Assembly (NCBI GenBank): GCA_024639325.1
Contig: JAHEIO010000033.1
Location: 1 to 32,071, forward strand
Origin: Gammaproteobacteria bacterium
Lineage (GTDB): Bacteria; Pseudomonadota; Gammaproteobacteria; Arenicellales; JAANXG01
Direction: 5' to 3'
Length of the DNA stretch: 32,071 bases
Position numbers and translations under genes: made by a program. This document shows, in pieces, positions 2,237 to 18,108 of the stretch. Every line of letters begins with the position of its first letter. Positions within the stretch are counted from its first letter, which is position 1. The notes beneath the pieces were generated by a model that searched no databases, was not told the DNA's origin, and saw only the letters and a list, made by a program, of their open reading frames with translations.

Positions 2237-2397
2237 GTGCTTGCTCCTGAGTTGACGCGCCGATTCTGTTGGGGCCGGCAGCGTGCCACCCGATCGTACC
2301 GGCTGTTAGTATAAAGTAAAGAGACACCGGGCACGCCGGGAGCGCATATCGCAGCAAAACCCCAGGCGATGGCGCCGGCGCCGATGAAGCAGGGTGG

Positions 2398-3624
2398 TCA
2401 CCTGAGCCGTCCCCGGTGCATGACCGCCTGGCAAGGGTTACCGCCCACCTGATAGCTGAGTTCCGACGGTTCGCGGACGTTCCACAACGCGAGGTCCGCC
2501 CATTTTCCTCGCTCTATGGTGCCTGTCTCATCCACCATCCGAAGGGCGCGGGCACCCTCCCGGGTCGCGCCGGCCAGGGCCTCCTCCGGCGTCAACCCGA
2601 ACAGCGTGCACGCCATGTTGAGCATCAGGGTCAATGACAAAACGGGCGAACTGCCAGGATTCGAGTCGGTGGCAATGGCCATCGGTACACCATGACGGCG
2701 CATGGCCTCGATCGGCGGCAACCGGGTTTCCCGCAGGACGTAGAACGCCCCGGGCAGCAGCACCGCGACCGTGCCCGCATCCGCGAGGACGGCCACGTCT
2801 CGCTCGTGCAGGTATTCGAGATGATCCACCGAGATGGCTCCGTGTCGCGCGGCGAGGACGGCACCACCCAGATGGCTCAGTTGTTCGGCGTGGCACTTGG
2901 TTTCCAGCCCGTGTTCCGCCGCCGCGACGAACACCCGCTCGACCTGTTGCGGAGAAAAGGCGATGCCTTCACAGAAGGCATCCACCGCGTCAGCCAATCC
3001 TTCCTCAACCACTCGTGGCAGCATTTCCTCGCACACTAGGTCGATGTATGCGTCGGCCCGGCCGTTATATTCGGTTGGTACCGCGTGTGCACCCAGAAAG
3101 GTAACCGTGATGTTTGCCGGTGTACTGTGCGCCAGCCGTTTCGCCACGCGCAGCATCTTGATTTCGGACGCCGTATCCAGACCGTAGCCGGATTTGATTT
3201 CGACGGTGGTGACGCCATTGTCGAGCAGTCCATTCATACGCAGCAGGGTCTGCTCGAACAACTGATCCTCGCTTGCCGATCGCGTGGCCCGCACCGTGGA
3301 CATGACGCCGCCGCCAGCGCGCGCAATGTCTTGATAGCTCGCCCCTTTCAACCGCATCTCGAATTCGCCGGCCCGATTTCCCGCATAGATCAGGTGGGTG
3401 TGACAGTCGACCAGCCCCGGCGTGACCAGTCTGCCGCTACAGTCCTTGATCTCCTTCGCGCGAGCGAGGGAACCTTCCGGGAGGGAGTGTGTCGGACCGA
3501 CCCGGTCGACGATGCCCTGTTGAACGCAGACCGCGCCATTTTCAACCATCCCGTAGGCATGGGTATCGGGTACCATCGTCGCGACGTTGGCGTTGTACCA
3601 AATCGAATCCCAGGTGATCTGCAT
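2398..3624 (-). CDS. hutI: Imidazolonepropionase
   Basis: Metal-dependent amidohydrolase for the third step of histidine degradation: it opens the imidazolone ring to give N-formimino-L-glutamate. The protein is 408 residues, typical for the family. Visible metal and active-site motifs are HTH at residues 75-77, KCHAEQ with a histidine at about 245, VDHLEYLHE with a histidine at about 268, and ATDSNPGS with an aspartate at about 320. The ATG start is preceded by AAGAGG at five-base spacing. It is the first gene of the minus-strand hut unit and is divergent from hutF. A TGTA-N2-TACA palindrome lies 20 bases upstream of the start, suggesting repression by a HutC-type regulator. Identification is secure. 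Confidence 0.98.
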   Translation of the reverse strand: MQITWDSIWYNANVATMVPDTHAYGMVENGAVCVQQGIVDRVGPTHSLPEGSLARAKEIKDCSGRLVTPGLVDCHTHLIYAGNRAGEFEMRLKGASYQDIARAGGGVMSTVRATRSASEDQLFEQTLLRMNGLLDNGVTTVEIKSGYGLDTASEIKMLRVAKRLAHSTPANITVTFLGAHAVPTEYNGRADAYIDLVCEEMLPRVVEEGLADAVDAFCEGIAFSPQQVERVFVAAAEHGLETKCHAEQLSHLGGAVLAARHGAISVDHLEYLHERDVAVLADAGTVAVLLPGAFYVLRETRLPPIEAMRRHGVPMAIATDSNPGSSPVLSLTLMLNMACTLFGLTPEEALAGATREGARALRMVDETGTIERGKWADLALWNVREPSELSYQVGGNPCQAVMHRGRLR

Positions 3625-3643
3625 CGTTGCCTCTTGACTGAGC

Positions 3644-3653
3644 TGTATTTACA
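3644..3653. promoter_or_regulatory. Candidate HutC operator between divergent hut units
   Basis: The sequence TGTATTTACA is a perfect TGTA-N2-TACA palindrome, the pattern described for HutC (GntR family) operators in pseudomonads. It sits in the hutI-hutF control region, 20 nt before the hutI start and about 180 nt before hutF. A TTGACG sequence on the minus strand at 3695-3700 could be a hutI -35 box, but no well-spaced -10 pairs with it. No hutC gene is in the window, so the assignment rests on motif and position only. Confidence 0.42.
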
Positions 3654-3829
3654 AATATATTCATTCGAGCCATTACCGGGCGTCTATGCAGGCTCGTCAA
3701 CGCATTGCAAATGTTAAGGAATTTGATGTTGTTTGAAAATCCATATTTATTGGTAGCGCTTGTCCCGGCTCTCGGTGGGAAATGTGGGCTAATGCGCAAT
3801 CCATCAACCCGCCGATGAGAGACGACGAG

Positions 3830-5215
3830 ATGGATGTCCGAATCTTGAGATTCAACCAGGCACTGCTGCCTTCGGGGTGGGCCCGGGACGTCGCCGTGTC
3901 CGTTGATCCTCGCGGCGACATCGTTGCCGTGGAATCCGGGGCCAAGGCTTCACACCTGGAGGCGCCTTTTTCCGGCTGCGTCCTTCCCGGCATGCCGAAC
4001 GTGCATTCCCATGCCCATCAGCGGGCGATGGCCGGACTTGCGGAATACTCCGGCCCGACCGCCGACAGCTTCTGGAGCTGGCGAACCGTCATGTACGACT
4101 TCGTAAACCGGATGACGCCGGATCAACTCGAGGCAATCGCCGCTCAGCTTTACCTAGAGATGCTTAAATCCGGATACACCTCGGTCGCCGAGTTCCAGTA
4201 CCTGCATCACGACGAGTATGGGTGTCCGTACCAGCAACCGGCGGAGATGTCTCTGCGCACTCTTGCCGCCGCCCGGACTACCGGCATCGCCATGACCAGC
4301 CTTCCGGTACTGTACCGATACGGCGATTTTGGGGCGTCGCCACCGCAGACTGGCCAGAAACGTTTCGTCAACGACGCCGATCGTTATTTGACCATTGTCA
4401 GCGCGCTCGAAGACGAGACTCGCAACGACCCGGATCACCGGGTGGGCATCGCACCCCACTCCCTGCGCGCCGTGAGCCTTGAACTGCTCGAGGAAGTGCT
4501 CGACGGTTGTCCAGACGACATTGGCCCGATCCACATCCACATCGCGGAACAGACTAAGGAAATCGAAGATTGCATTAGCTGGTCGGGGCAGCGCCCAGTG
4601 CAGTGGCTTCTGTCGAAATTCGAGATCGACGCCGGATGGTGTCTGGTCCACGCCACGCACATGAACGACGCGGAAATATCAGACGTTGCGTCCACGGGCG
4701 CCGTGGCGGGGCTTTGCCCGACGACCGAAGCCAATCTGGGTGACGGTTTCTTTCCCGCACGCGACTACCTGGACTGCGGCGGGCTGTTCGGCATTGGATC
4801 GGACAGCCATATCTCTGTGGATCCGGTGGAGGAACTGCGATGGCTCGAGTACGGTCAGCGACTCCTTCGACACTCACGCAACGTACTTGGCGATCCCAAT
4901 GCACAAGCGAGCACGGGTCGTTATCTGTTCGATGGCGCAGTGCTCGGCGGGGCGCGGGCCTGCGGAAGGTATACCGGGCGGATCGAACCAGGCTACCGGG
5001 CGGATCTGATCACGCTGGATACCGATCACCCCATCCTATACGGCCGCGAACGCGATGCGTTGCTGGACAGCTGGATATTCTCCGGCAACGCCGAACGAGT
5101 CCGGGACGTTTTCGTGGGCGGTCGGCAGATTGTGTCAAACGGGATTCATCCTTTGCAGGATACAATCGCCCTCGCCTTTAAAAGCGCACTCGATCAATTG
5201 GGAAACTTAACGTGA
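3830..5215 (+). CDS. hutF: N-formimino-L-glutamate deiminase
   Basis: Amidohydrolase-superfamily enzyme that deaminates formiminoglutamate to N-formylglutamate, the fourth step of the HutF/HutG branch. The protein is about 461 residues. Metal-binding signatures are HSHAHQ at about residues 59-64, HIHIAEQ in the middle, HATHMND, and GIGSDSHIS near the C-terminal third. Family members start close to an ALLPSGWA-like segment, which here begins at residue 11 if the ATG at 3830 is used; GAGAG lies about eight bases upstream of it. Longer in-frame starts at 3815 and 3782 exist, and 3782 is preceded by GGTGGGAA, so the exact start is uncertain. The stop overlaps the GTG start of hutH by four bases. 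Function is secure. Confidence 0.95.
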
Positions 5216-6744
5216 CCGAAACGCTACGAATCGAACCGGGGCAGCTCACCCTGTCGGATTTACGGCGGATCTATTACTCGGCAATCCCGATCGAAATGTC
5301 GGAAAACGCCTGGAAGCAGGTCGCTCGCAGCCGCTCAACCGTGGAAAGCGTCATCGAAAGGGGCGGTACAGCCTACGGCATCAACACCGGCTTCGGGCGG
5401 CTGGCACAGACCCGCATCGATGACGAGCAGCTGGGGGAATTGCAAACCAACCTCGTTTTATCCCACGCCACGGGCGTCGGCGACCTCCTGGACGACGACA
5501 CCGTAAGATTGATCCTGCTGCTCAAGATCAACGCGCTCGGGCGCGGCTACTCCGGGGTCAGCCGACAGGTACTCGATCTGTTGATCGCCATGTACAACCG
5601 CGGCCTCTACCCCGCGGTGCCCGCGAAGGGTTCGGTGGGCGCATCCGGCGACCTCGCCCCCCTGGCCCACCTGAGTCTGCCGCTGATCGGCCGGGGCCAG
5701 ATCAGAGCGGACGGCGGACTCATGGACAGCGTTACGGCGCTCGAAAAGGCCGGTCTGCGCCCGATCGACTTGGCGGCAAAGGACGGCCTGGGCCTGTTGA
5801 ACGGGACCCAGGTGTCGACGGCTCTGGCGCTCAAGGGATTGTTTCAGGGCGAACGCAACCTCGACGCCGCGTTCGTCGCCGGCAGCATAACGGTGGAAGC
5901 CGCGTTGGGCAGCCGTGTTCCGTTCGACGAGACCATCAATGCAATTCGGGGCCACCGCGGACAGATCGAAGCAGCCCGTATCTATCGTTCGCTGCTGGGT
6001 CCCAGCGAGATCGGGCGTTCACACACCAATTGCGACCGGGTTCAGGACCCCTACTCCATGCGGTGCCAGCCGCAGGTCATGGGTGCGTGTCTGGATCAGA
6101 TGACGAATGCGGCAGCGTGCCTCGAAACCGAGGCAAACGCCGTGTCGGACAATCCGCTGGTATTGTCCGACAGGGGTGAAATACTCTCCGGGGGCAACTT
6201 TCACGCCGAGCCCGTTGCCATGGCCTCGGATAACCTGGCGTTGGCTATTGCCGAGATTGGTGCGCTATCCGAGCGCCGCACCGCCCTGCTGATCGATTCG
6301 AGCCTGAGCCAGCTGCCGCCGTTCCTGGTCGACGATGCGGGCCTCAATTCCGGATTCATGGTGGCCCAGGTTACTGCCGCCGCGCTTGCCAGTGAAAACA
6401 AGTCCCTGGCACACCCGGCATCTGTCGACAGCCTGCCCACTTCGGCCAATCAGGAAGACCACGTCAGCATGGCCACCTACGCCGCACGGCGGCTGACCGA
6501 AATGAACGAAAATACGCGATACATTCTGGCGGTGGAGCTTCTTGCAGCCGCGCAGGGTATTGATTTAAGGCGGCCCATGCGTTCCAATGACGCCATTGAG
6601 AGAGCGTTCCGGACCATCCGGAACACCGTCCCGAAGTGGGAGCAAGATCGGTATTTTCAACCAGACCTCGAAGCGGTGTCGAAGCTGATCGGTGACGGCG
6701 CCTTCGGGGAGTGGATTAGCGGATACCTCGGAACCAACGCCTGA
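5212..6744 (+). CDS. hutH: Histidine ammonia-lyase
   Basis: Catalyses the first step of histidine degradation, the non-oxidative deamination of L-histidine to urocanate, in the cytoplasm. The 510-residue protein has the family length. The Ala-Ser-Gly triplet that cyclises into the MIO electrophile is at about residues 144-146 within [16 protein letters not shown] catalytic tyrosine is in YGINTGFG near residue 56, and SDNPLV and QEDHVSM are conserved active-site segments. The start is GTG at 5212, which overlaps the hutF stop (GTGA) with GGGA a short distance upstream, so translation is probably coupled. It is followed after 14 nt by hutG. Tyrosine or phenylalanine lyases share the fold, but the hut context settles the call. 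Confidence 0.98.
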
Positions 6745-6758
6745 CAGAGCTTAATAAA

Positions 6759-7562
6759 ATGACCGATCTCTTCGAGTTCCACAGCGGGCACCTACCCCTG
6801 TTGGTAAGCATTCCCCACGCGGGAACCAAAATACCGGACAACATCTTCGGTCGGTTCAGCAACGCCGGCAAGAAACTGCCCGATACCGACTGGTTCGTCC
6901 CGCGGCTATATGAATTCGTAAAGGACCTCGGAGCCTACCTGATTGTTGCTAACTACAGCCGTTACGTTGTCGATCTGAACCGGCCGCCGGACGACAAGAA
7001 TCTGTATGAGGATGAAAAAGGCTCGGGACTGATTCCCATGACCCTGTTCGACGGTTCACCGCTGTACGCGGCAGAGGAACCGTTCACCGAGGAAGATATC
7101 AACGAACGATTGGACACGTACTGGCGGCCTTACCACACCAAGATTACCGAGGTCGTGGCGCAGATGAAGGAGGACCACGGCTATGCACTGATTTACGACG
7201 CACACGCCATCGCGTCGCGCATTCCGAATCTGTTCAAGGGCAAACTTCCCGACCTGAACCTGGGTACCAACAACGCAGAGAGCTGCGCGCCTGAATGCGG
7301 TTATGCGATTGCCGAGGTCATCAGGGCCAGCGGTTTTACATCGACCATCAACGGCCGTTTCATCGGGGGTTACATGACGCGCCACTACGGAAAACCGGCC
7401 AAGCACGTCCACGCCGTCCAGATGGAAATCGGCCATGCGGCTTACATGGACGAAGCGTCACTCGAATACGACGAGGAAAAAGCCGACAAGTTGATCCCGG
7501 TATTGAAAAACGTTGTGAATGCCTATCTCGGCGCCATGAGCCCGGGAAGTCCGCCGGTATAA
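6759..7562 (+). CDS. hutG: N-formylglutamate amidohydrolase (deformylase)
   Basis: Last step of the pathway: hydrolysis of N-formyl-L-glutamate to L-glutamate and formate. The 267-residue protein shows the family segments SIPHAG near residue 18, DTDWFVPRLYEF near residue 43, SRYVVDLNRPPDD, a DAHAI motif, and QMEIGHAAYMDE near residue 225, which contribute the metal and substrate ligands. The ATG follows the hutH stop by 14 nt, with only a weak AGAG-type ribosome site. It is the third gene of the plus-strand hut unit. With hutF it shows that this organism uses the route releasing formate rather than formamide. It faces the Rieske gene across a 42-nt convergent gap. Identification is secure. 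Confidence 0.96.
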   Translation: MTDLFEFHSGHLPLLVSIPHAGTKIPDNIFGRFSNAGKKLPDTDWFVPRLYEFVKDLGAYLIVANYSRYVVDLNRPPDDKNLYEDEKGSGLIPMTLFDGSPLYAAEEPFTEEDINERLDTYWRPYHTKITEVVAQMKEDHGYALIYDAHAIASRIPNLFKGKLPDLNLGTNNAESCAPECGYAIAEVIRASGFTSTINGRFIGGYMTRHYGKPAKHVHAVQMEIGHAAYMDEASLEYDEEKADKLIPVLKNVVNAYLGAMSPGSPPV

Positions 7563-7604: not shown

Positions 7605-8633
7605 TTAGGCCCCCAGCGCCCTCCTCACCAACTCCTGAAACCGCGCCACGTGAGTCTCCTGCAGCGGCGACAGCGGACCGTCGGTGTAAACACCGGCTTC
7701 GAGGTTGGCCTGCACACCCTCGCACGCGCCCAAGTCTTCGTGAACGACCAGTTCGCTCCAAGCGCAGGCGTCTTCGACCTGCTCCTCGCTGATACCCTGA
7801 TACCAAAGCCAGTTCATTGATCTCAGCCGGTTGGGCGCAGCCGGTTCGATGCGCTCGCCCTTGAACACGTTCGCGCTCGCGGTCAACTGAAATCCCGGGA
7901 AGCGATAGACCCAGACACCCTCATTGCCGCGCAGCCGGGCGCCCTCACTCTGACCGCCGTAGTTCACGTGGAACGCCACCACCCGGCCTTCGTCATACGA
8001 TTTGATTTCCACCGATCCCTTGGCAAGCGCCTGCGCAAGGCGCGGGTGCACCAGATTCAGGTGGTAACCTTCAAGCGTGTTATCACAGTAAGCCTTCCAG
8101 TTGGCGCTGCCCTGTATCTCGAACGACTTGTACAGTTCGAGATCCTCGGGGCCGGGAAACGGTGCACAGAGGGTGTCCACGCTGCCCAGCCAGGAAAGCA
8201 GGTCCGGGGATATTTCGCTCAAACAGACAAATACGAGGCCGCGCCAGTTTTCGACCCGCACGGGCAGCAGCCCATGCTCATTTGGATCGAAACCATCGTC
8301 ATCACCAAACAGCGGAGCCTTCTGCAACTTGCCGTCGAGCCCGTACAGCCAGCCGTGGTAGGGACAACGAATCGCACCGCAGGTCCCGGTACCCTCCTGC
8401 AACAGTGGCGACGCGCGGTGTCGGCACACGTTGTGAAAGGCCCGCAGCGTCTGATCGCGGCCACGGACCAGCAGCAGGGGATGTCCAAACAGTTTCAATG
8501 CGCAATATGCACCCGCTGCAACCAATGCGCGCTCTGGGCCTACCGGCCACCAGGCCTGTTTGAATATTTTATCTTTCTCTTGATTGTGGATCGAGGCGTC
8601 GTGGTACCAGTGCGACGGCAGTGTTCTGGTCAT
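7605..8633 (-). CDS. Rieske non-heme iron oxygenase, alpha subunit (quaternary-amine demethylase-like)
   Basis: Ring-hydroxylase alpha-subunit protein of about 342 residues. The [2Fe-2S] Rieske motif is C70-x-H72 ... C90-x2-H93 (CRHRAS and CPYHGW). The mononuclear iron site is formed by H191 and H196 in EGYHLNLVHP and an aspartate at about 300 in HEDLGACE. Length and layout match CntA/GbcA-type enzymes that demethylate or cleave carnitine, glycine betaine or proline betaine better than large aromatic dioxygenases; this is inference from family knowledge. The ATG at 8633 fits homolog starts; a TTG at 8681 would start inside the preceding gene and is less likely. It is 23 nt downstream of the amidotransferase gene. 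No cognate FAD/ferredoxin reductase is in the window. The substrate is undetermined. Confidence 0.88.
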   Translation of the reverse strand: MTRTLPSHWYHDASIHNQEKDKIFKQAWWPVGPERALVAAGAYCALKLFGHPLLLVRGRDQTLRAFHNVCRHRASPLLQEGTGTCGAIRCPYHGWLYGLDGKLQKAPLFGDDDGFDPNEHGLLPVRVENWRGLVFVCLSEISPDLLSWLGSVDTLCAPFPGPEDLELYKSFEIQGSANWKAYCDNTLEGYHLNLVHPRLAQALAKGSVEIKSYDEGRVVAFHVNYGGQSEGARLRGNEGVWVYRFPGFQLTASANVFKGERIEPAAPNRLRSMNWLWYQGISEEQVEDACAWSELVVHEDLGACEGVQANLEAGVYTDGPLSPLQETHVARFQELVRRALGA

Positions 8634-8656
8634 ATTATAAAAATCCGAGAGATTGA

Positions 8657-9394
8657 TCAGCCGAACGCATTCGTCTTCCAATTGACGTAAACAATTCGCG
8701 CGCAGCGGTTGAAATCATCCATGCTGGCGGCCGCTTCCGCCTCCATTTTTTCGACGGCATTGCCGCCGAGATTAAGCTCCAGCGCCTGCTTGTACTCGGC
8801 GACTTTCGCCCATTCGGAAACGGTCTCCGAGGAGATCTCGACGTGGTACTGCAAGCCCAGCGCGTTGCCATTGACCGACAGGGCCTGCACCCGGCACGCC
8901 GGTGTGGAAGCCAGCACTTCGACGTCATCCGGTATCTCGAGAACCTCCGCGCTGTGCCATTGCAGACACCGGGTTGTATCAGACAATCCTTTGAACAGTG
9001 GGCTGCGCTTACCCGCGTCGGTCAGGTACACCTCGAGAATTCCGATTTCCGGTTGGTCGGACGGTCCGACCCGGCCACCCAGCGCCTCCGCCAGCAGTTG
9101 ATGTCCGAGGCAGAGTCCCAGGTAAGGCAGCTTGCGTTTGGCCACGGCTTCGCGTATGACCTCGATCTCCGACTCGAGCCACGGATGTTCGAGCTTCTGC
9201 CACACATCCATCGGTCCACCCATGACCCACAACGCGTCGTAACCGTGGAGATCGGGAATGGTGTCTCCCTGGTCGAGTTGGACAGCATCCCAGGAGATCC
9301 CGTCTTCCGCCAGGAACGATCGGAAAATTCCGGGATGTTCTATGGCGATATGCTGCAGTACTAGAATTCGGAGTTGTTGTGAAGCCATGGCCAA
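8657..9394 (-). CDS. Class I glutamine amidotransferase-like protein (GuaA-type domain)
   Basis: A stand-alone GATase1 domain of 245 residues. The catalytic triad is visible: the nucleophilic cysteine at about residue 95 in GLCLGHQ, histidine at about 184 and glutamate at about 186 in QYHVE. The oxyanion-hole segment VMGGPMDV is near residues 57-64. Such proteins hydrolyse glutamine to supply ammonia, or act on gamma-glutamyl amides. No synthetase domain is fused or adjacent, so its partner is unknown. GAGGT lies six bases before a TTG at 9394 and twelve before the ATG at 9388; I use the TTG, but the ATG is nearly as likely. It sits directly upstream of the Rieske gene on the same strand and is probably co-transcribed. 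Confidence 0.85.
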   Translation of the reverse strand: MAMASQQLRILVLQHIAIEHPGIFRSFLAEDGISWDAVQLDQGDTIPDLHGYDALWVMGGPMDVWQKLEHPWLESEIEVIREAVAKRKLPYLGLCLGHQLLAEALGGRVGPSDQPEIGILEVYLTDAGKRSPLFKGLSDTTRCLQWHSAEVLEIPDDVEVLASTPACRVQALSVNGNALGLQYHVEISSETVSEWAKVAEYKQALELNLGGNAVEKMEAEAAASMDDFNRCARIVYVNWKTNAFG

Positions 9395-9508: not shown

Positions 9509-10735
9509 TCAGGCATTGCTTGCAGCCAATCGTGCGACTGGACGTTCACGGATCGGCCAGTGCACTAATGCCGCGACCACCCCGAGGACAATTCCGGCCC
9601 ACCAGACCGGGTCGTAGCTGCCGGTCCGGTCGTACAGCCAGCCGCCCAGCCAGACACCGCTGAAGCTGCCCAGCTGATGGCCGAAAAACACCACGCCATA
9701 CAACATCGCCATGTAACGAGTGCCGAACATCACCGCCACCAGCCCGGAGGTCGGCGGAACCGTAGCCAGCCACAAGAATCCCATCACGGCGCTGAATGTC
9801 AGCACCGATACCAGGCTGAAGGGAATCAACAGGAACGCGCTGATGGCCACGGCCCGGCCCAGATAGATGATTACCAGCATGTACCTTTTGGGAAAGGTGC
9901 CCGACCACACGCCAGCCATGTAGGCGCCGACTACGTTGCACAGACCAATGATGGAAATACTCGATGCCCCCACCCAGTCCTCGAAACCGGCATCGGACAG
10001 GAAGGCCGGCATGTGCGCCGTGATGAATGCGACGTGAAATCCACAGACAAAGAACCCAAGCACCAGCAAGACGTAGGACCTGTGGCCCGCCGCCTCGCGC
10101 AAAGCCTCGGGCACGCTCTGGTCCCCGCCCCGCTGCCTCGATTCCGCATGGCCGGAATAGGGCGCGAGCGGTATGGCCAGCAGGGCCATGAACAAACACG
10201 ACACCGACAGGATGTGCAGCGCGTTGATCCAGCCAAAATCGGTGATCAGTCCCTGGGCAATCGGAACCATGGCGAACTGGCCCAGCGATCCCGCCGCGGT
10301 GCCGAGGCCGAGCGCCCATTGCCGGCGCTCTTCACCCACGGCCCGCGCCATTGCGGGCAGTACGATGCCGAAGGACGTGCCGGCCACTCCGGCGCCCACC
10401 AGTACTCCGGCCGAGGTGTGCAGCATCCACGGACTGTCGACTCCCGCCATGAGATACATGCCGAGTGCGTAGAGCACCGTGCTGACGACGATCACCTTGA
10501 CGTTTCCGAAGCGGTCGGCAAGTGCGCCGGCAAACACGGCTACGATGCCCCAGCAAAGATTTTGTATCGCGAGAGCCAGGGAGATGACCTCCCTGCCCCA
10601 GCCGTTAGCCTCCGTGATAGGTTTGACGAACAAACCGAATCCGGAGCGGTACCCAAACGACATCAGGAGCAGCAGGCAGGCGGTGCCGATCAGAAAAACG
10701 CCCGGGCCGTTTTCCTTCAATATCGCTCTTGTCAC
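9509..10735 (-). CDS. Major facilitator superfamily transporter
   Basis: Inner-membrane permease of 408 residues with about twelve hydrophobic segments in two halves separated by a hydrophilic loop near residues 200-220 (rich in R, G, D and E). The first-half loop motif appears as GALADRFGNVKVIV, matching the MFS A-like signature between helices 2 and 3; the second half has a repeat-like ERxxxGxxxGTAAG segment. It looks like the OFA/monocarboxylate branch of the superfamily rather than a BCCT carrier. The start is GTG at 10735 with GAGG about six bases upstream. It lies 97 nt downstream of the CaiD-like gene and may import the substrate of the CoA-dependent pathway. Substrate is unknown. Confidence 0.87.
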   Translation of the reverse strand: MTRAILKENGPGVFLIGTACLLLLMSFGYRSGFGLFVKPITEANGWGREVISLALAIQNLCWGIVAVFAGALADRFGNVKVIVVSTVLYALGMYLMAGVDSPWMLHTSAGVLVGAGVAGTSFGIVLPAMARAVGEERRQWALGLGTAAGSLGQFAMVPIAQGLITDFGWINALHILSVSCLFMALLAIPLAPYSGHAESRQRGGDQSVPEALREAAGHRSYVLLVLGFFVCGFHVAFITAHMPAFLSDAGFEDWVGASSISIIGLCNVVGAYMAGVWSGTFPKRYMLVIIYLGRAVAISAFLLIPFSLVSVLTFSAVMGFLWLATVPPTSGLVAVMFGTRYMAMLYGVVFFGHQLGSFSGVWLGGWLYDRTGSYDPVWWAGIVLGVVAALVHWPIRERPVARLAASNA

Positions 10736-10832: not shown

Positions 10833-11618
10833 CTATCGTCCTTTCCATACCGGCTCTCGTTTCTCGGCGAAAGCCCGCGCCCCCTCTAGCTGGTCCTCAC
10901 TGGAATAGAGCGTGTCCACGGTGGGGAAACGTCGGCCGGTGATCATGTCCATGGCCTGCTGAAAACCCATTGCCTCGGTTTCGCGGGCCACCTCCTTGAT
11001 ACAGGCGAATACCAACGGCGGTCCCCCGGCCAGCAGTTGAGCCATTTCACGCGCCGACTGCATGATTTCGCCGGCCGGGACGATCTTGTTGACCAATCCC
11101 CAGCGCAGGGCCTCTTCCGCTTCCATCCACCGGCCCGTGAACAACAGATCCATCGCGACATGATACGGCATACGCCGCGGTACCTTGATGGTCGCCGCGT
11201 CCGCCAGCGTTCCAGCATTGATTTCCGGCAGCGCAAAGCGAGCGTGTTTTGCGGCAATGATCAAATCTGCAGACAACGCAATCTCGAAACCGCCGCCCAC
11301 GGCCATGCCGTTTACCGCGGCGATGATGGGCTTGTTCAGATCGGGCAATTCCTGCATACCGCCAAAGCCGCCCACCCCGTAATCCGAATCCGGCGCTTCC
11401 CCTTCGGCCGCCGCTTTGAGGTCCCACCCCGCGCAAAAGAACTTGTCGCCGGCCCCGGTTACGATCGCGACCCGCTTTTCCGAATCGTCCCGGAACGACT
11501 CGAATACCTTGCCCATGGCACGGCTAGTCGCCGCATCGATGGCATTTGCCTTGGGGCGGTTGATCGTGACTTCCACCACCGGGCCGTTTTCCTTAACTTC
11601 GATCGGATTTTCGCTCAT
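10833..11618 (-). CDS. Enoyl-CoA hydratase/isomerase family, CaiD-like (carnitinyl-CoA dehydratase-type)
   Basis: Crotonase-fold protein of 261 residues, unusually close to Escherichia coli CaiD in what I recall of that sequence: shared segments include RPKANAIDA, the AGWDLKAAAEGEAPD stretch, EEALRWG and the C-terminal AFAEKR-PVWKGR. The glutamates matching the CaiD catalytic pair are at about 112 (GGGFE) and 132 (FALPE). CaiD interconverts crotonobetainyl-CoA and carnitinyl-CoA. The usual P-D-A/S-G-G segment is altered here (TLADAATIKVPRR), so the true substrate may differ. The ATG has AGAGGAA upstream and overlaps the stop of the synthetase gene by four bases (ATGA), indicating coupling. 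Family is secure; the carnitine-type substrate is inference. Confidence 0.9.
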   Translation of the reverse strand: MSENPIEVKENGPVVEVTINRPKANAIDAATSRAMGKVFESFRDDSEKRVAIVTGAGDKFFCAGWDLKAAAEGEAPDSDYGVGGFGGMQELPDLNKPIIAAVNGMAVGGGFEIALSADLIIAAKHARFALPEINAGTLADAATIKVPRRMPYHVAMDLLFTGRWMEAEEALRWGLVNKIVPAGEIMQSAREMAQLLAGGPPLVFACIKEVARETEAMGFQQAMDMITGRRFPTVDTLYSSEDQLEGARAFAEKREPVWKGR

Positions 11619-13657
11619 GTGTTTTTCCTCTTCTTAAGCCAGATCATCCCGTCAACCGCACAGGCTCCGCTGCTGGCCGCGATGACCGGATTGATGTCGA
11701 GTTCGTGCAAGGTGTCACGATGTGCGAATGCCAAATTCTGCACCTTGAGTACGATCTCGACGACTGCGTCCAGATCGGCCGCGGGCTGCCCGCGCCATCC
11801 TTTGAGCGTGGGAGCAAACTGCAGAGAATCGATCGCGCCCCGGATTTCCTTCTCATTCGTGGGCAGAAGCAATACCCGGGAGCTTTTGAACACCTCCGCC
11901 ATGACCCCGCCCATACCGATAATGAGGTGCAATCCGACCACGGGGTCGCGGGACGCGCCAATGATAAATTCGGCAATCCCGTTCAGGAACATCGCTTCCG
12001 CCAGCACGCGGCGTTCGACTGCCGCAAGATTTTCGTATGCCGCAATGATGGCATCCTCGGAATCGAGATTGAGCGCAACGCCCCCGGCTTCCGTCTTGTG
12101 TACCAACGATTTGCTGACCGCCTTCATGACGATCGCCGAGCCGACATTGTGCCACAAATCAATCGCGTCCCCCGCACTTTCGCACGCGCAGTGTTTCGGA
12201 ACCGGCACATCGTATTTGCCGAGGAGTGCCTTCGTGTCGATCTCGTCGAGTACGGTAGGTTCACCAATGACCATCGTCGGCGAGGCAACCGGACAAGGTT
12301 CATGCGTACCGATAAACGCCGCGGCCTCGATCGCACCCAGCGCATCGTCCACGCCGAGCAGCGGGATCACGCCGGCCAGCAGCAGTCTTTCACAATGCGC
12401 TTCCGGCAGGCATTCAGGCAGTGTCGCAACCACGGCCGCCCTGCGTTTCGTGGTTCGCGCGGCGTTGGCCAACGCCCCCCAGGCCGCATCCCATGCGAAG
12501 GCATCCCCGGCTCGTTCCCTCGGAAAGTCCATCACCAGTACAGTCAGGTCGAATCCGCTTCGCATGACCGCGGTGAACGTCGCTTCCAACCGCTCGGCAT
12601 TGCCCCAGTCGAAAGTATGGTAATCGAACGGATTGGAAACGTGAACCAGGGGATTCACGGTCTCCCGTATGCGGCTTCGATCTTGTTCACTGAATGGGCG
12701 GAAATGAAGGTCCCGGTGGCGCGCGGAGTCGGACATGATGGAGGCCTCGCCGCCGGAACAGGACAGACTGGCGATGTTCTTCCCACTCAACGGTCCGCCG
12801 GCGTGGAGAATCTTGAGTGTCTCCAGCAGCTGCGGCACCGTTTCCACGCGTGCCACGGCGAGCCGCCTGAGATACTCGTCCATGATCGCGTCGGACCCCG
12901 ATAGAGACGCGGTATGGCTCAAGGCCATCGCCCGGGATGCCTCGGTCCGGCCGGTCTTGAGCACTACGATCGGCTTGCCTTTGGCACGGGCATACTCGGT
13001 TGCGGCGGAAAATGCCGCGCTGTTCGCGATGCCTTCGATGTAGACCCCGATTGCCGTGACGCGATCGTCATCACACAGGGAATGCACGATATCGTGCAGA
13101 CCAACCGCGGCCTGATTGCCGGCCGTAATCAGATAGGCCAGCGGGACACCACGTTGACTCATAGTCAGGTTGACACCGACGTTGCTGGACTGCGTTATCA
13201 GCGCCACGCCAAGTTGCCGCCGCTCGCCGCCGTGCACATCAGGCCACAGCAGCGCGCCGTCGAGATAATTGATCAAGCCGTAGCAGTTCGGACCCAGGAT
13301 GGGCATGGTGCCGGCCGCCGCCACGAGCTGATCCTGAAGTTCGTTGCCGTCATCACCCACCTCGCGGAATCCGGATGCATAACACACCGCACCACCCGCC
13401 CCAATTTCCGACAGCGACCGGATGACGGGTATGGTCGCGTGCCGGTTGACTCCAACGAATGCGGCATCCGGCGACCCGGGCAGCTCCTCCGCTCTGCGCA
13501 TGCACGATCTGCCCAGGACCTCTTCGCGCTCGGGATGGACAGGCCAGATATCACCCGCATAGCCCATCCGGTCACACTGCCTGACAACCGCCTCGGCAAA
13601 ATGGCCGCCGAAAACCGCGATGGATCGCGGTCTCAATATCCGGCGAATCGATTTCAC
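11615..13657 (-). CDS. Fused acyl-CoA synthetase (NDP-forming), acetyl-CoA synthetase/ACD type
   Basis: About 680 residues in the order CoA-binding Rossmann domain (1-130), two succinyl-CoA-ligase-like flavodoxin domains (about 145-440), and an ATP-grasp domain (about 465-675). The phosphohistidine that shuttles phosphate is H248 in the ALSHTASLSGSD segment. These enzymes interconvert acyl-CoA plus ADP and phosphate with acid, CoA and ATP, so they can either activate an acid or conserve energy. The usual P-loop-like turn near residue 16 is VFGGHF. I use the GTG at 13657, which overlaps the preceding gene's stop as GTGA; a longer frame to 13750 would overlap that gene by about 97 nt. It is encoded between an acyl-CoA dehydrogenase and a CaiD-like gene, taking the place of the AMP-forming CaiC ligase. 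Confidence 0.9.
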   Translation of the reverse strand: MKSIRRILRPRSIAVFGGHFAEAVVRQCDRMGYAGDIWPVHPEREEVLGRSCMRRAEELPGSPDAAFVGVNRHATIPVIRSLSEIGAGGAVCYASGFREVGDDGNELQDQLVAAAGTMPILGPNCYGLINYLDGALLWPDVHGGERRQLGVALITQSSNVGVNLTMSQRGVPLAYLITAGNQAAVGLHDIVHSLCDDDRVTAIGVYIEGIANSAAFSAATEYARAKGKPIVVLKTGRTEASRAMALSHTASLSGSDAIMDEYLRRLAVARVETVPQLLETLKILHAGGPLSGKNIASLSCSGGEASIMSDSARHRDLHFRPFSEQDRSRIRETVNPLVHVSNPFDYHTFDWGNAERLEATFTAVMRSGFDLTVLVMDFPRERAGDAFAWDAAWGALANAARTTKRRAAVVATLPECLPEAHCERLLLAGVIPLLGVDDALGAIEAAAFIGTHEPCPVASPTMVIGEPTVLDEIDTKALLGKYDVPVPKHCACESAGDAIDLWHNVGSAIVMKAVSKSLVHKTEAGGVALNLDSEDAIIAAYENLAAVERRVLAEAMFLNGIAEFIIGASRDPVVGLHLIIGMGGVMAEVFKSSRVLLLPTNEKEIRGAIDSLQFAPTLKGWRGQPAADLDAVVEIVLKVQNLAFAHRDTLHELDINPVIAASSGACAVDGMIWLKKRKNT

Positions 13658-14814
13658 GAACCGAGGGGTCTCAACAATTCCCGTGAAATGATATGACGCT
13701 GGATTTCGCTGGTGCCGTCCCAGATCCGCTCGACCCGGGCGTCCCGCCAAAACCGCGCGAGCGGCAGATCGTCCATGAGCCCCATACCGCCGTGGATTTG
13801 AATCGCCTCATCCGTGACGCGAGCCAGCATTTCCGAGGCATAGACCTTGGCGCTGGCGATCTCCCGGTTCGCGTCGAGTCCCTGGTCCAGCCGCCATGCG
13901 GACGCCAGCGTCAACCAGTCCGCAGCATCGATTTCGGTGATCATGTCGGCAAGCTTGAACGACACCCCCTGGAACCGGCCGATGGTCTGCCCGAACTGCT
14001 TGCGCTGGGACGACCAGTCCAGAGCGTAGTCGAAAGCCCGACGCGCCCTGCCCACACAGAACGCCGCGACGGATATCCGGGTGGCATAGAGCCACTCGTT
14101 GGCGACCTCGAATCCCTGACCTTCCTCGCCCAGGACCTGTTGGTCCGGCAGGCGACAGTTGTCGAAATTGAGAATACAGTTTTGATAACCGACGTGAGAC
14201 ACGGAATTGTAGCCTTTGCGGATCTCGAATCCGGGGGTATCGCGATCGACCAGGAAGCAGGTGATGCGCTTCTTCGGTCCACGGGGAGTCTTCTCCTCGC
14301 CGGTGGCGATAAACACGATAATGAAATCCGCCAGGTCGGCGTGACTGATAAAGTGTTTGGTTCCGTTGACGATCCAGTCGCCGCCGTCGCGCCGGGCGGA
14401 ACACTTCATGCCGCGCACATCCGAACCCGCGTCTGGCTCCGTCATCGCCAGGGCGTCTATCTTCTCTCCGTTGATTGCCGGGATCAGATACCGTTCCCGC
14501 TGCTGCGCATCGCTGGCGCACAGGATGTTCGACGGTCTTCCCCACCAGACCGACAAACCCATCGAAGTCCGGCCAAGTTCCCTTTCGAGCAATGTAAAGG
14601 TCAGGTGATCCAGGCCACCGCCGCCAAACTCTTCCGGCATATTGGGCGCATAGAAACCTAGCTCGATGACCTTGCGCTGTATTTCCTTGCCAACTTCCAG
14701 CGGCAGCATTCCAGACCGCTCAAGCTCGCCCTCCAGCGGGTACATCTCCTGCTCGACAAACTTGCGAACGGTATCGACAATCATTTCCTGTTCGTGGGTC
14801 AACCCGAAATGCAT
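13654..14814 (-). CDS. Acyl-CoA dehydrogenase family flavoprotein (Asp at the usual catalytic Glu)
   Basis: FAD enzyme of 386 residues with the family signatures AMTEPDAGSD (about 123-132), RKQFGQTIG(RFQG) near 271, QIHGGMG near 339 and the C-terminal WDGTSEIQRHII segment. It would introduce an alpha,beta double bond into an acyl-CoA and pass electrons to ETF. In medium-chain enzymes the C-terminal motif is Y-E-G-T and the glutamate is the catalytic base; here the equivalent residue is aspartate at about 366. AGAGGAA precedes the ATG. It is the first gene of the unit that continues with the acyl-CoA synthetase and CaiD-like hydratase, and is comparable in role to CaiA. Family is certain; substrate unknown. 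Confidence 0.93.
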   Translation of the reverse strand: MHFGLTHEQEMIVDTVRKFVEQEMYPLEGELERSGMLPLEVGKEIQRKVIELGFYAPNMPEEFGGGGLDHLTFTLLERELGRTSMGLSVWWGRPSNILCASDAQQRERYLIPAINGEKIDALAMTEPDAGSDVRGMKCSARRDGGDWIVNGTKHFISHADLADFIIVFIATGEEKTPRGPKKRITCFLVDRDTPGFEIRKGYNSVSHVGYQNCILNFDNCRLPDQQVLGEEGQGFEVANEWLYATRISVAAFCVGRARRAFDYALDWSSQRKQFGQTIGRFQGVSFKLADMITEIDAADWLTLASAWRLDQGLDANREIASAKVYASEMLARVTDEAIQIHGGMGLMDDLPLARFWRDARVERIWDGTSEIQRHIISRELLRPLGS

Positions 14815-14936
14815 GGCGTCTTCCTCTGGATGTCCGCATTGATAAAGCAGCGGCGGGAGCCTGGATGATCACTGTCAAGACCGCCCTGGTGAAAAATGCA
14901 CAGTTAGATTAATACAGAGTGACAGCGCACACAATC

Positions 14937-14953
14937 CGGGTTAAATTGACCCG
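14937..14953. promoter_or_regulatory. 17-bp dyad between divergent promoters
   Basis: CGGGT and ACCCG are perfect inverted 5-mers around a 7-nt AT-rich centre, located between the acyl-CoA dehydrogenase gene (minus) and the DUF1638 gene (plus). Position and symmetry suit an operator for a dimeric repressor. A consensus TTGACA on the minus strand near 14870 could be a -35 box, but no matching -10 was found. The regulator is unknown. Confidence 0.3.
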
Positions 14954-14980
14954 CGCAAAGTTCTGATTTCCCTGTTGCCC

Positions 14981-15601
14981 ATGAAGACACCCGGGTCAAT
15001 TCTGATCATCGCTTGCGGCGCCCTCGCCCACGAAATCACCGCCCTGAAGCGGCTCAACGGCTGGCACCACATCGACCTGCAGTGCCTGCGTGCGGACCTC
15101 CACAACCACCCCCAGAAGATCACAGGCGCGGTCAAGGAACAGATCGACAAGGCAAAGGGCAACTACGATCGCATCTACGTCGGATATGCCGACTGCGGTA
15201 CCGGCGGCCGGCTCGATGCCCTGCTGGAATCAGAGCAGATCGACCGACTGCCCGGTGCGCACTGCTACGAGTTCTTCGCTACCCGCCGGGTCTTCGACGA
15301 GCTGTCAGAAGCCGAGCTTGGGACGCTGTACCTCACCGATTACCTGACCCGGCATTTCGATCGGATTATTATCAAAGGCTTCGGCCTCGATCGCCACCCC
15401 GACATCCAGGCAATGATGTTTGCCCACTACAAGAAGCTGGTTTACCTGTCCCAGCTTCGGGATGATGGACTTGTCGAGCAGGCCCGCAAGGCGGCGGACC
15501 GGCTGGGTCTGGAGTTCGAACATCGATATACAGGCTATGGTGAACTTGAGTCCAGTTTGAACATGCTGGTTTCAAACCCTGTTCTACCCGACAACGTGTA
15601 G
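14981..15601 (+). CDS. DUF1638 family protein
   Basis: A 206-residue protein with the three conserved cysteine segments of the DUF1638 family: IACGAL (Cys12), a Cys at 35 followed by LHNHP, and YADCGTGG (Cys72). It has no signal peptide or membrane segment. From general knowledge the family is uncharacterised and is often found near corrinoid-dependent methyltransferase genes; the Cys/His pattern suggests metal or corrinoid binding, but that is inference. The ATG at 14981 is taken, with TTG at 14975 as alternative; neither has a good ribosome site. It is the only plus-strand gene inside an otherwise minus-strand catabolic region. The MttB-family gene at the left end is 15 kb away. Confidence 0.82.
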   Translation: MKTPGSILIIACGALAHEITALKRLNGWHHIDLQCLRADLHNHPQKITGAVKEQIDKAKGNYDRIYVGYADCGTGGRLDALLESEQIDRLPGAHCYEFFATRRVFDELSEAELGTLYLTDYLTRHFDRIIIKGFGLDRHPDIQAMMFAHYKKLVYLSQLRDDGLVEQARKAADRLGLEFEHRYTGYGELESSLNMLVSNPVLPDNV

Positions 15602-15618
15602 AACTAACACCGGCACGG

Positions 15619-15693
15619 GTAATCGGCCGGCGCGGGCCTCCTACCTGTCACCCAACCATCAGGACGGCGTAGGAGCGGCCCCCCGCGCGATAC
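15619..15693. repeat. Inverted pair of REP-like elements (REPIN/BIME-like)
   Basis: The segment 15619-15644 reads GTAGGAGG...CCGATTAC on the minus strand, and 15669-15693 reads GTAGGAGCGGCCCCCCGCGC on the plus strand, so two GTAGGAG-headed palindromes face opposite ways 24 nt apart. This arrangement is typical of REP doublets mobilised in trans by RAYT transposases; none is seen in the window. It lies between the convergent ends of the DUF1638 and CoA-transferase genes, the usual place for such repeats. Confidence 0.6.
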
Positions 15694-15766
15694 TAGGGCC
15701 TCAGCAGACAAAGATCCGCGTCCAAGAATCACTCTGTACTGTTTCAGAGGACAAATCGTCCACTGA

Positions 15767-16945
15767 TCACACCACTCCTATCCGCTCAAACAGTTCAATA
15801 TTCTCCTGCTCGTAACCCAAAGACCGAAGTATTTCTGCCGACTGCTCACCGACATTCGGGACCGATCCCATTCGTACATCCTCTCCGGAAACGGACACCG
15901 GCGGTTTAAGCACGTTTATAGGCCCTGCAGGCGAATCGATTTCCACCCAGCGATTGCGGGCAGCAAGCTGTACGTGTTCAAAAAATTCCTGCATCGTGTT
16001 CATCCGCCCGTATGCGATCCTCGCCTGTTCGAGCCGGTGGATCATTTCATCCAGTGATACCGCACCGAACTCTACATGCATAATCTTATCCAGCATCGCA
16101 CGGTTTTTATTGCGAGCCTGGTTGCCCTTGAAACGCTCGTCGTCGACGAGGTCGGGACGCAACAGGACCGTGCGACAAAACTCAACCCACTCCCGTTCGT
16201 TTTGCAATCCGATCACGACAGACTTACCACCCGCGATCATAATCGGACCGTAAGGCGCAATCGTGGCATGATGCGCCCCGGTCCTCGCCGGAGCTACACC
16301 GCCATACCCGGTATAATATGCAGGGTAGGACATCCATTCCGCCAAGGCGTCGAACAACGACACGTCGACGATTGTGCCCTGCCCAGTTTTCGAACGCCTC
16401 AGTAGCGCCGCCAGAATCCCACTGTAGGCGTACATGCCGGCAGCAATGTCCGCAATGGAGATGCCGGCCTTTGATGGCGTATCCTTCGTACCCGTTATGG
16501 ACAGCAGCCCGGCTTCCGCCTGCACCAAAAGGTCATAAGCCTTTTTGTCCCGATACGGCCCGTCATTGCCGTAGCCGGATAGGTTGCAGATGATGAGGCG
16601 CGGATGAGATTTTTGCAGTGCGTCACTGCCGAACCCCAGCCTGTCCACGGCACCGGGTGCTAGATTCTGGATGAACACATCGGCGTCGGCCAATAGACGT
16701 CCGAGAATTTCCTTGCCATCCTGTTTCTTGATGTCGAGGGTCAGACTCAACTTCGAGCGGTTGAGCCACACGAAGTGGCTGGACAATCCCTTGACGGTCT
16801 TATCGTAATTGCGCGCAAAATCGCCGCTGCCGGGACGTTCGATCTTGATAACTCGAGCACCCCAGTCCGCGAGGTGCCTGGACGCCAGGGGTGCGGCCAC
16901 CGCCTGCTCCAATGCCACGACGGTGATGTCCTCGAGTAATGCCAT
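15767..16945 (-). CDS. Type III (CaiB/Frc/BaiF family) CoA-transferase
   Basis: Family III CoA-transferase of 392 residues. The N-terminal segments ITVVALEQAVAAPLASRHLADWGARVIKIE and later NLSGYGNDGPY are signatures, and the catalytic aspartate that forms the mixed anhydride is at about residue 138 in KKAYDLLVQAEAGL. It would transfer CoA between an acyl-CoA and a free carboxylate, as CaiB does for carnitine or related enzymes do for itaconate and citramalate. The ATG at 16945 overlaps the upstream acyl-CoA dehydrogenase stop as TGATG, so the two are translationally coupled; a TTG three bases earlier is less likely. Paired with that dehydrogenase and the MaoC remnant upstream, it may process a short branched or dicarboxylic acid. 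Substrate is unresolved. Confidence 0.93.
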   Translation of the reverse strand: MALLEDITVVALEQAVAAPLASRHLADWGARVIKIERPGSGDFARNYDKTVKGLSSHFVWLNRSKLSLTLDIKKQDGKEILGRLLADADVFIQNLAPGAVDRLGFGSDALQKSHPRLIICNLSGYGNDGPYRDKKAYDLLVQAEAGLLSITGTKDTPSKAGISIADIAAGMYAYSGILAALLRRSKTGQGTIVDVSLFDALAEWMSYPAYYTGYGGVAPARTGAHHATIAPYGPIMIAGGKSVVIGLQNEREWVEFCRTVLLRPDLVDDERFKGNQARNKNRAMLDKIMHVEFGAVSLDEMIHRLEQARIAYGRMNTMQEFFEHVQLAARNRWVEIDSPAGPINVLKPPVSVSGEDVRMGSVPNVGEQSAEILRSLGYEQENIELFERIGVV

Positions 16946-18108
16946 CAATAGGATCGCGGCAGATTTAGAACGTGTTCGGCCACAAAGGAAAGTATGAGGT
17001 TGGTCGAAATCGGCGCGATCTGATAGAGGCGCGTCTCCCGAAACTTGCGCTCGATATCATAATCCCGGGCGAATCCATATCCACCGTGGGTCTGCAGCGC
17101 CACGTTGGCCGCCTCCCACGATGCGTCCGCGGCCAGCAGCTTGGCCATATTGGCCTCGGCACCGCTTTTCACCCCCTGATCGAACAGGTCGGCCGCCTGA
17201 TACCGCATGAGGTCCGCCGCGCGAAGATTGACGTAGGCGCGGGCAATGGGGAACTGGATTCCCTGGTTCTGTCCGATCGGCCGGCCGAACACCTCGCGCT
17301 CTCCGGCGTAGGCGGAAGCCCTGTCGATGAACCAGTAGCCATCACCGATGCACTCCGCGGCAATCAGCGTGCGCTCGGCGTTCATGCCATCCAGTATGTA
17401 TCTGAATCCCCTGCCTTCCTCGCCTATCAGGTTTTCCCGGGGCACCTTGAGGCCGCTGAAGAAAACCTGATTGGTCTCGTGGTTCATCATCGTCTGGATG
17501 GGGTGGACCTCGAGTTCATCTCCAGTCGCCCCCCTCAGATCCACCAGAAACACGGACAATCCCTCCGATTTCTTCTTAACCTGATCCAGCGGCGTCGTTC
17601 GGGCCAGCAGCAGCAACAAATCCGAATGCTGTACCCGGGAGGTCCAAACCTTCTCACCGTAGATTTCGTAGTAGTCCCCTTTGAATTCGGCGCGGGTGCG
17701 CAGTTTGGTGGTATCAGAGCCGGTGTTCGGCTCCGTCACGCCGAAAGCCTGGAGCCGCAACTGTCCGCTCGCGATTTCAGGCAGAAACTTATTCTTTTGC
17801 TCAGGCGAGCCATGGCGGAGTATCGTTCCCATGGTATACATCTGCGCGTGGCACGCGCCCGCGTTGCCGCCACAGCGATTGATCTGCTCCAGGATGACGG
17901 AGGCCTCGGCCATACCCAGTCCGGTACCGCCGTATTCCTCCGGGATCAGAGCGGACAGCCATCCCGCATCCGTCAGCTCTTTTACGAATGCCTCGGGATA
18001 GTCACGGCTATCATCCAGTTCACGCCAGTACTCGTCACCAAACCGCTCACATAGAGCCGAGACGGCCTCACGAAGTTCAGGATAACGATCGGTGTTCGCA
18101 TTTATCAT
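16945..18108 (-). CDS. Acyl-CoA dehydrogenase family flavoprotein (helix-G glutamate type)
   Basis: FAD-dependent dehydrogenase of 387 residues. Family signatures are GVTEPNTGSDTTKL (about 123-136), REVFGRPIGQNQG (about 271-283) and QTHGGYGFARDYDIERKFRETR. The C-terminal segment that usually carries the catalytic glutamate is instead LYQIAPISTNLI, with no acidic residue. A glutamate at about 245 in GMNAERTLIAAE aligns with the helix-G base of isovaleryl-CoA and long-chain dehydrogenases, so the enzyme is probably active using that residue (inference). A GAGG sequence lies about twelve bases upstream of the ATG. Its stop overlaps the CoA-transferase start, making a two-gene coupled unit. The gene upstream was once a MaoC-like dehydratase, now a fragment. 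Confidence 0.92.
   Translation of the reverse strand: MINANTDRYPELREAVSALCERFGDEYWRELDDSRDYPEAFVKELTDAGWLSALIPEEYGGTGLGMAEASVILEQINRCGGNAGACHAQMYTMGTILRHGSPEQKNKFLPEIASGQLRLQAFGVTEPNTGSDTTKLRTRAEFKGDYYEIYGEKVWTSRVQHSDLLLLLARTTPLDQVKKKSEGLSVFLVDLRGATGDELEVHPIQTMMNHETNQVFFSGLKVPRENLIGEEGRGFRYILDGMNAERTLIAAECIGDGYWFIDRASAYAGEREVFGRPIGQNQGIQFPIARAYVNLRAADLMRYQAADLFDQGVKSGAEANMAKLLAADASWEAANVALQTHGGYGFARDYDIERKFRETRLYQIAPISTNLILSFVAEHVLNLPRSY

Follow-up and report, generated by a model that had tools for sequence, protein, structure and literature searches.

The window analysed here, the whole 32,071-nucleotide stretch of contig JAHEIO010000033.1 (assembly GCA_024639325.1), is contig 88 of a 352-contig, 4.69 Mb genome of a gammaproteobacterium of the order Arenicellales, and it carries on its minus strand five genes that an original prediction, made from the sequence alone, had read as one carnitine-like coenzyme A (CoA) gene set. 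All five were found in the place and with the families that it had named. From position 18108 downwards, they encode an acyl-CoA dehydrogenase, ACD1 (16945..18108, recognised by Pfam); a family III CoA-transferase (15767..16948; PF02515/CoA_transf_3, 352 bits); a second dehydrogenase with Pfam Acyl-CoA_dh domains, ACD2 (13654..14814), for which a role as gamma-butyrobetainyl-CoA dehydrogenase is proposed; an NDP-(ADP-)forming acyl-CoA ligase with fused alpha and beta parts (11615..13657; CoA_binding_2, Succ_CoA_lig and ATP-grasp_5); and a CaiD-like crotonobetainyl-CoA hydratase, ECH (10833..11618; PF00378/ECH_1, 207 bits). Their description as tightly overlapped holds inside each of two modules and fails between them. 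In module A (ACD2, ligase and hydratase, 10833-14814), both junctions overlap by 4 bases, given a ligase start at GTG 13657, which is preferred from comparison with relatives over the TTG 13750 reached by the longest open reading frame; in module B (ACD1 and CoA-transferase, 15767-18108), the overlap is also 4 bases. The modules are separated by 952 bases, in which a divergent gene for a DUF1638 protein is embedded on the opposite strand (14975..15601, plus; PF07796, 108.9 bits), a gene that the original prediction did not mention. The order module A-DUF1638-module B recurs in three same-genus loci, L038-L040 (with ACD1 cut by the contig end in L038), where ligase identity to the window is 95% in L040 (uncultured gammaproteobacterium) and 65% in L038 (Arenicellales), so that the position of the DUF1638 gene is not due to chance.

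The comparison with other genomes demonstrated that the two modules occur independently. Relatives of the window CoA-transferase with 58-60% identity were found in eight genomes outside the genus, and at seven of these eight places (genomes G001, G002 and G004-G008) the gene is paired with an ACD1 relative (72-78%); at the eighth place (G048), its neighbour is an acyl-CoA dehydrogenase only 34% identical to ACD2. No match to the trio ligase at E 1e-130 was present in the seven genomes carrying the pair, and neither a carnitine dehydrogenase (CDH) nor a close trio ligase occurred in the stretches around the eight CoA-transferase places (14 loci). In L123, a distant ligase fragment (26%) and a HutG-like match (41%) were observed. 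Additionally, the ACD2-ligase-ECH trio is widespread without this ACD1/CoA-transferase pair. Since the pair is found without the trio and the trio without the pair, the five genes represent two modules that stand side by side in this genus.

Thus, the placement of the CoA-transferase and both dehydrogenases in a single carnitine set could not be sustained, considering that the pair occurs in seven family genomes without the trio ligase, that the CoA-transferase is only 27% identical to E. coli CaiB, and that identity to E. coli CaiA is 29% for ACD2 and 27% for ACD1. The idea of two dehydrogenases in the CaiA role is likewise unsupported, ACD1 belonging to module B. The CoA-transferase is a member of the CaiB superfamily and not a CaiB orthologue; its nearest solved structures are formyl-CoA transferase (219 bits) and succinate-hydroxymethylglutarate CoA-transferase (214 bits), with CaiB at 92 bits. 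At the usual base position ACD1 has no acidic residue, and it presents a Glu at the isovaleryl-type position. For both dehydrogenases, the best NCBIfam match is the acryloyl-CoA reductase AcrC, below cut-off; the second-best match of ACD1, also below cut-off, is the glutaryl-CoA dehydrogenase model. Module B is, as predicted from family and neighbourhood, a neighbouring and separate pathway.

As judged from its sequence, the module A ligase is an NDP-(ADP-)forming acyl-CoA synthetase of the ACD superfamily. Its three Pfam domains (CoA-binding, succinyl-CoA-ligase-like and ATP-grasp) all score above cut-off, the phosphohistidine is kept in 103 of 103 ligase relatives, and His248 and the ATP-grasp His520 are invariant in 19 aligned sequences. 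When its AlphaFold model (pLDDT 87.6) was compared by VIA-align, the dimethylsulfoniopropionate (DMSP) lyase DddX (7cm9) came out at the top (Z 39.8, root-mean-square deviation 2.9, 670 residues, TM 0.89), with PH0766 tied at Z 39.1 but over 422 residues only, followed by an ADP-forming 4-hydroxybutyryl-CoA synthetase (Z 36.9 over 570). In the FastTree phylogeny, which was built on one alignment with a chosen root and used solely for the split from DddX, 100 trio-type ligases form one clade with support 0.989 and DddX falls outside it. A four-residue insert also distinguishes the clade from DddX, and the insert motif DYHT[FY]xW is present in most of its members. Relatives of the ligase are encountered in 159 of 72,556 plasmid records and in 64 of the 109 genomes of the window's order, and in the annotated records opened they are labelled 'acetate--CoA ligase family protein'. 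In L041 (12034-12708), a SAM-dependent methyltransferase gene lies between ligase and hydratase, and L137 (8073-8750) has a gene of the same size there.

Regarding the other two members of module A, the hydratase shares 53% full-length identity with E. coli CaiD, and Glu occupies CaiD positions 111 and 131 both in the window protein and in 86 of 86 aligned relatives, as in a CaiD-type enzyme. The alignment sets for hydratase (86) and dehydrogenase (78) comprised relatives of at least 45% identity, and the base positions were assigned from what we take to be the catalytic residues of CaiD, medium-chain acyl-CoA dehydrogenase and isovaleryl-CoA dehydrogenase. ACD2 carries an Asp at the position where, presumably, most acyl-CoA dehydrogenases have the catalytic Glu, and among its 78 relatives the residue is Asp in 33 and Glu in 45. 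Both forms are found near CDH, as exemplified by L047 (Asp) and L137 (Glu), which argues that the Asp form probably catalyses this same reaction and does not signal a new one. An ACD2 relative adjoins the ligase in 31 of 36 named loci and in 46 of 60 loci of the order.

A clue to the substrate came from the neighbourhoods of the ligase relatives. The 96 ligase loci counted correspond to the 36 named loci plus 60 of the 71 places in the order; of the remaining 11 places, five come from G009 or the genus of the window and six from elsewhere. Loci cut by contig ends were kept in the denominators. At a threshold of at least 150 bits, a CDH was identified in 54 of the 96, as against none in the 54 control loci, which total 286 kb and represent about 45 distinct places. 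L041 and L136 are identical in sequence, and for this reason loci were also grouped by ligase identity (95 of 96 loci, L071 being partial), which gave CDH in 49 of 91 groups at 97% and in 43 of 71 at 80%; a first count with other thresholds had given 35 of 60 loci of the order. Among the 36 named loci, 20 have a CDH, 19 a BKACE and 13 a relative of the GlxA/AraC-type regulator, and the only such regulator scored, that of L045, has GbdR as its best model, below cut-off. The NCBIfam CDH cut-off was passed by four of five proteins scored: L067 (440.8, cut-off 414), L058 (656.4, cut-off 592), that of G009 (420.6, cut-off 414) and that of the window genome itself (448.4, cut-off 414). The carnitine-type chemistry of the original prediction, in which the ligase role falls to an NDP-forming synthetase, is borne out by the 53% identity to CaiD and by the contrast between 54/96 and 0/54.

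Individual gene rows point in the same direction. On the R. etli plasmid p42c, a GlxA-type regulator, a BKACE-family '3-keto-5-aminohexanoate cleavage protein', a carnitine 3-dehydrogenase, an acyl-CoA dehydrogenase, an acetate--CoA ligase family protein, a carnitinyl-CoA dehydratase and an ABC transporter are found in a row, and an Alloyangia plasmid carries the enzymes of this row in a different order. In R. pomeroyi, the row consists of regulator, acyl-CoA dehydrogenase, ligase, DJ-1/PfpI protein and carnitinyl-CoA dehydratase, with the DJ-1/PfpI gene between ligase and hydratase. The ligase orthologues are SPO_RS21275 in R. pomeroyi DSS-3 and RHE_RS23490 in R. etli CFN 42. The original prediction was to fall if such clusters had already been assigned to another substrate; all three annotated records examined name a 'carnitinyl-CoA dehydratase', and two of the three also a 'carnitine 3-dehydrogenase'. 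Closer to the window, G009, of the same family, presents the end of a BKACE gene, CDH, ACD2, ligase and ECH consecutively, and the window genome has both genes of the CDH-BKACE pathway side by side on its contig 248, the CDH (448 bits) being a protein of 327 residues that matches the shorter of the models, which has no extra thioesterase-like domain. In the same-genus genomes G010 and G012 (L197-L200), fragments of a further, divergent set (CDH, ECH, acyl-CoA dehydrogenase and ligase, 34-54% identity) were also observed, which suggests, from the sequences, two related substrates.

Taken as a whole, module A quite probably specifies an aerobic pathway by which gamma-butyrobetaine (or crotonobetaine) is converted to L-carnitine by way of CoA esters. 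This reading is built on the gene content, the protein families, the conserved catalytic residues, the carnitine neighbourhoods of relatives and the presence of genes for the last step; from these we infer the substrate, the direction and the enzyme of carnitine release. The ligase would use ATP, through its phosphohistidine, to form gamma-butyrobetainyl-CoA with release of ADP and phosphate; ACD2 would then oxidise this ester to crotonobetainyl-CoA, passing the electrons to the electron-transferring flavoprotein (ETF), and the CaiD-like hydratase would add water to give L-carnitinyl-CoA. In its simplest form, carnitine release would be catalysed by the ligase in reverse, carnitinyl-CoA, ADP and phosphate giving carnitine, CoA and ATP, with a thioesterase or CoA transfer as alternatives. 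Finally, carnitine would be taken towards glycine betaine by L-carnitine dehydrogenase and BKACE, whose genes lie on a different contig.

With respect to release, a CaiB-type match of at least 60 bits was detected in nine of the 54 CDH loci (for example L185, L188, L189 and L191, together with CDH, ligase and hydratase), and none was detected at 60 bits in the other 45. Five complete five-gene operons (L063, L065, L068, L070 and L169) possess neither such a match nor, at 40 bits, a CDH-fused thioesterase-like domain, a domain that we take to be a betainyl-CoA thioesterase. In view of these five operons, reverse ligation is the simplest local answer, while another or a distant thioesterase may instead account for release in them. 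ADP-forming ligases are reversible, and conservation of ATP by this ligase is soundly predicted from its enzyme class. A broader proposal, held only tentatively, is that a single ADP-forming ligase, working reversibly, takes the place of both CaiC and CaiB in a broadly distributed marine and rhizobial route, the ATP spent in loading gamma-butyrobetaine being regained at carnitine release, with no net ATP use. The ligase might also harvest betainyl-CoA in operons without thioesterase and CoA-transferase.

Several observations weigh against the gamma-butyrobetaine assignment. The control loci, 5.3 kb long on average, are shorter than the ligase loci (14 kb), and they overlap in part: the 14 CoA-transferase loci represent eight places, and among the 22 other-ligase loci three contain a gene already counted. 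In the stretches examined, 42 of the 96 ligase relatives have no CDH, partly because of contig ends; in R. pomeroyi the 20 kb examined contain none, and in the window CDH and BKACE are not adjacent to the trio. The L137 CDH (388.3) remains below the cut-off of 414 and neither of the two BKACEs scored reaches an NCBIfam cut-off, so that the dehydrocarnitine role of BKACE rests on the literature. The best NCBIfam match of the hydratase, crotonobetainyl-CoA hydratase, reaches 334 bits against a cut-off of 500. Finally, ACD2, with its low identity to CaiA, scores against many short-chain dehydrogenases and carries the Asp at the base position.

The closest structural relative raises the alternative that the ligase is a DddX-type DMSP lyase, which would form DMSP-CoA and split it into dimethyl sulfide and acryloyl-CoA, the latter to be reduced by the dehydrogenase or hydrated by the crotonase. 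Besides the DddX fold, the AcrC matches of both dehydrogenases and the largely marine origin of the ligase relatives would suit this reaction. Nevertheless, identity to DddX is about 25%, under the >30% used in the DddX study (PMC8163506). The conserved His292 of DddX is kept, but the window protein has no Glu at the place of the base Glu432, where MAFFT aligns an Asp and HMMER an Ala. Trp391 of DddX was considered as a sign of a cation pocket and dropped, given that HMMER and MAFFT align it differently; the distant paralogues L024 and L033 also have a Trp at that place. On the grounds of the low identity, the missing Glu432, the exclusion of DddX from the ligase clade with its insert, and the CDH neighbours, which are not expected for DMSP, the lyase reading was rejected as very improbable. 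The Asp of ACD2 evokes a different chemistry, in which ACD2 would act like BbuA, an acyl-CoA-dehydrogenase-like enzyme described in a published account (PMC8364193), and cleave gamma-butyrobetainyl-CoA into crotonyl-CoA and trimethylamine, the crotonase then hydrating crotonyl-CoA. The comparison with BbuA was based on its published description. Operons of this same type also hold the 45 of 78 relatives with an ordinary Glu, the hydratase resembles CaiD, and the CDH of many operons would be pointless if trimethylamine were released; trimethylamine cleavage is thus judged distinctly unlikely.

It could also be argued that all five genes form one quaternary-amine pathway in which CoA is recycled in the CaiB manner and dehydrogenation occurs twice, as the modules stand together in L038-L040 and nine of the 54 CDH loci include a CaiB-type match. 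This retains a small chance, against which stand the pair without trio ligase in seven genomes, the absence of CDH from the stretches of the eight CoA-transferase places, and the divergent gene that splits the modules. The smallest chance of all is attributed to an imidazole acid such as imidazolepropionate as substrate, with urocanate delivered to neighbouring histidine-degradation enzymes. A set of five hut-type genes does occupy 545-7562 of the window, and hutH and hutU lie beside the trio in L070, an alphaproteobacterial locus in which the association with the trio, also seen in the window's genus, perhaps arose independently. However, Hut relatives are present in none of the 60 loci of the order and in four of the 36 named loci, three of them of the same genus, CDH occurs in 54 of the 96, and L070 itself also has BKACE and CDH; with hut neighbours confined to the genus and L070, this reading was rejected.

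The gamma-butyrobetaine route proposed for module A can be placed among known systems. Like the E. coli cai operon, it has a CaiD-type hydratase and an acyl-CoA dehydrogenase, and the same CoA-ester chemistry is expected. It differs in having an NDP-forming ligase where CaiC is AMP-forming, in the 27-29% identity of the CoA-transferase and dehydrogenases to CaiB and CaiA, and in its direction, which is probably oxidative. Among the 20 window proteins scanned, no BCCT (CaiT-type), ETF (Fix-type) or AMP-binding (CaiC-type) family was found, the AMP-binding search being confined to this window of the genome. Compared with DddX, the ligase shares the full-length fold, the domain order and the phosphohistidine, and DddX also takes a cationic acid, whereas identity, the missing Glu432, the separate clade and other gene partners set the two apart. 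The CDH and BKACE pathway to betainyl-CoA and glycine betaine of Pseudomonas and Sinorhizobium is shared in its downstream genes, present in the window genome and near the trios of relatives; within the genus of the window these genes are found on a separate contig, and the CDH of the window genome is the short form. Lonza patents reportedly cover genes for gamma-butyrobetaine metabolism, and rhizobial plasmids carry this gene row, a likeness to HK4-type strains, HK4 being compared by description only. The available portion of one review attributes to the industrial strain HK4, of the Rhizobium/Agrobacterium type, an aerobic, fatty-acid-like route from gamma-butyrobetaine to carnitine, lists it in its table under gamma-butyrobetaine hydroxylase, and in that portion does not state the class of its ligase (PMC2131755). 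In Arctic SAR11, a gamma-butyrobetaine dioxygenase (BBOX) occurs with CDH and BKACE (PMC12421898); this is likewise an aerobic entry from gamma-butyrobetaine into the same CDH route, with an oxygenase in place of the ligase, dehydrogenase and hydratase found here. The bbu genes of E. timonensis represent another CoA route from gamma-butyrobetaine (PMC8364193).

On the minus strand, module A is followed downstream by genes for an MFS transporter (9509..10735; PF07690), a class-I glutamine-amidotransferase-like protein and a Rieske oxygenase (7605..9394), the last two overlapping, and the hut-type genes lie beyond the oxygenase. The transporter adjoins ECH also in L038-L040 and is a possible uptake protein. 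The nearest solved relatives of the Rieske oxygenase, carnitine monooxygenase among them, score 117-118 bits; PDB entry 3vca is presumably stachydrine demethylase. No reductase family was found among the neighbours scanned near it, and the same-genus genome G011 yielded no Rieske match. Of 12 Rieske relatives from beyond the genus, none has the amidotransferase within flanks of about 1.5 kb, and four have a family III CoA-transferase there. As for the DUF1638 gene, published work places its family with RamA-like proteins in cobalamin recharging during betaine demethylation and reports its rise in R. pomeroyi on nitrogen-containing osmolytes (PMC12478193, PMC5764234), which gives a possible tie to the demethylation of carnitine-derived betaine.

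A search of the open-licence PMC literature, with patents and subscription journals outside its scope, found no ADP-forming ligase in this role. A CoA-type gamma-butyrobetaine route as such has been recorded in the industrial strain. Both gamma-butyrobetaine and carnitine are osmolytes rich in nitrogen; glycine betaine and methyl groups are derived from them, as is trimethylamine in guts. The assignment of the ligase would provide a marker for the use of carnitine precursors in sea and soil, and it would reveal whether a single reversible ADP-forming enzyme handles both activation and release. If true, this would represent an unrecognised, energy-saving carnitine route hidden under 'acetate--CoA ligase family protein' names.

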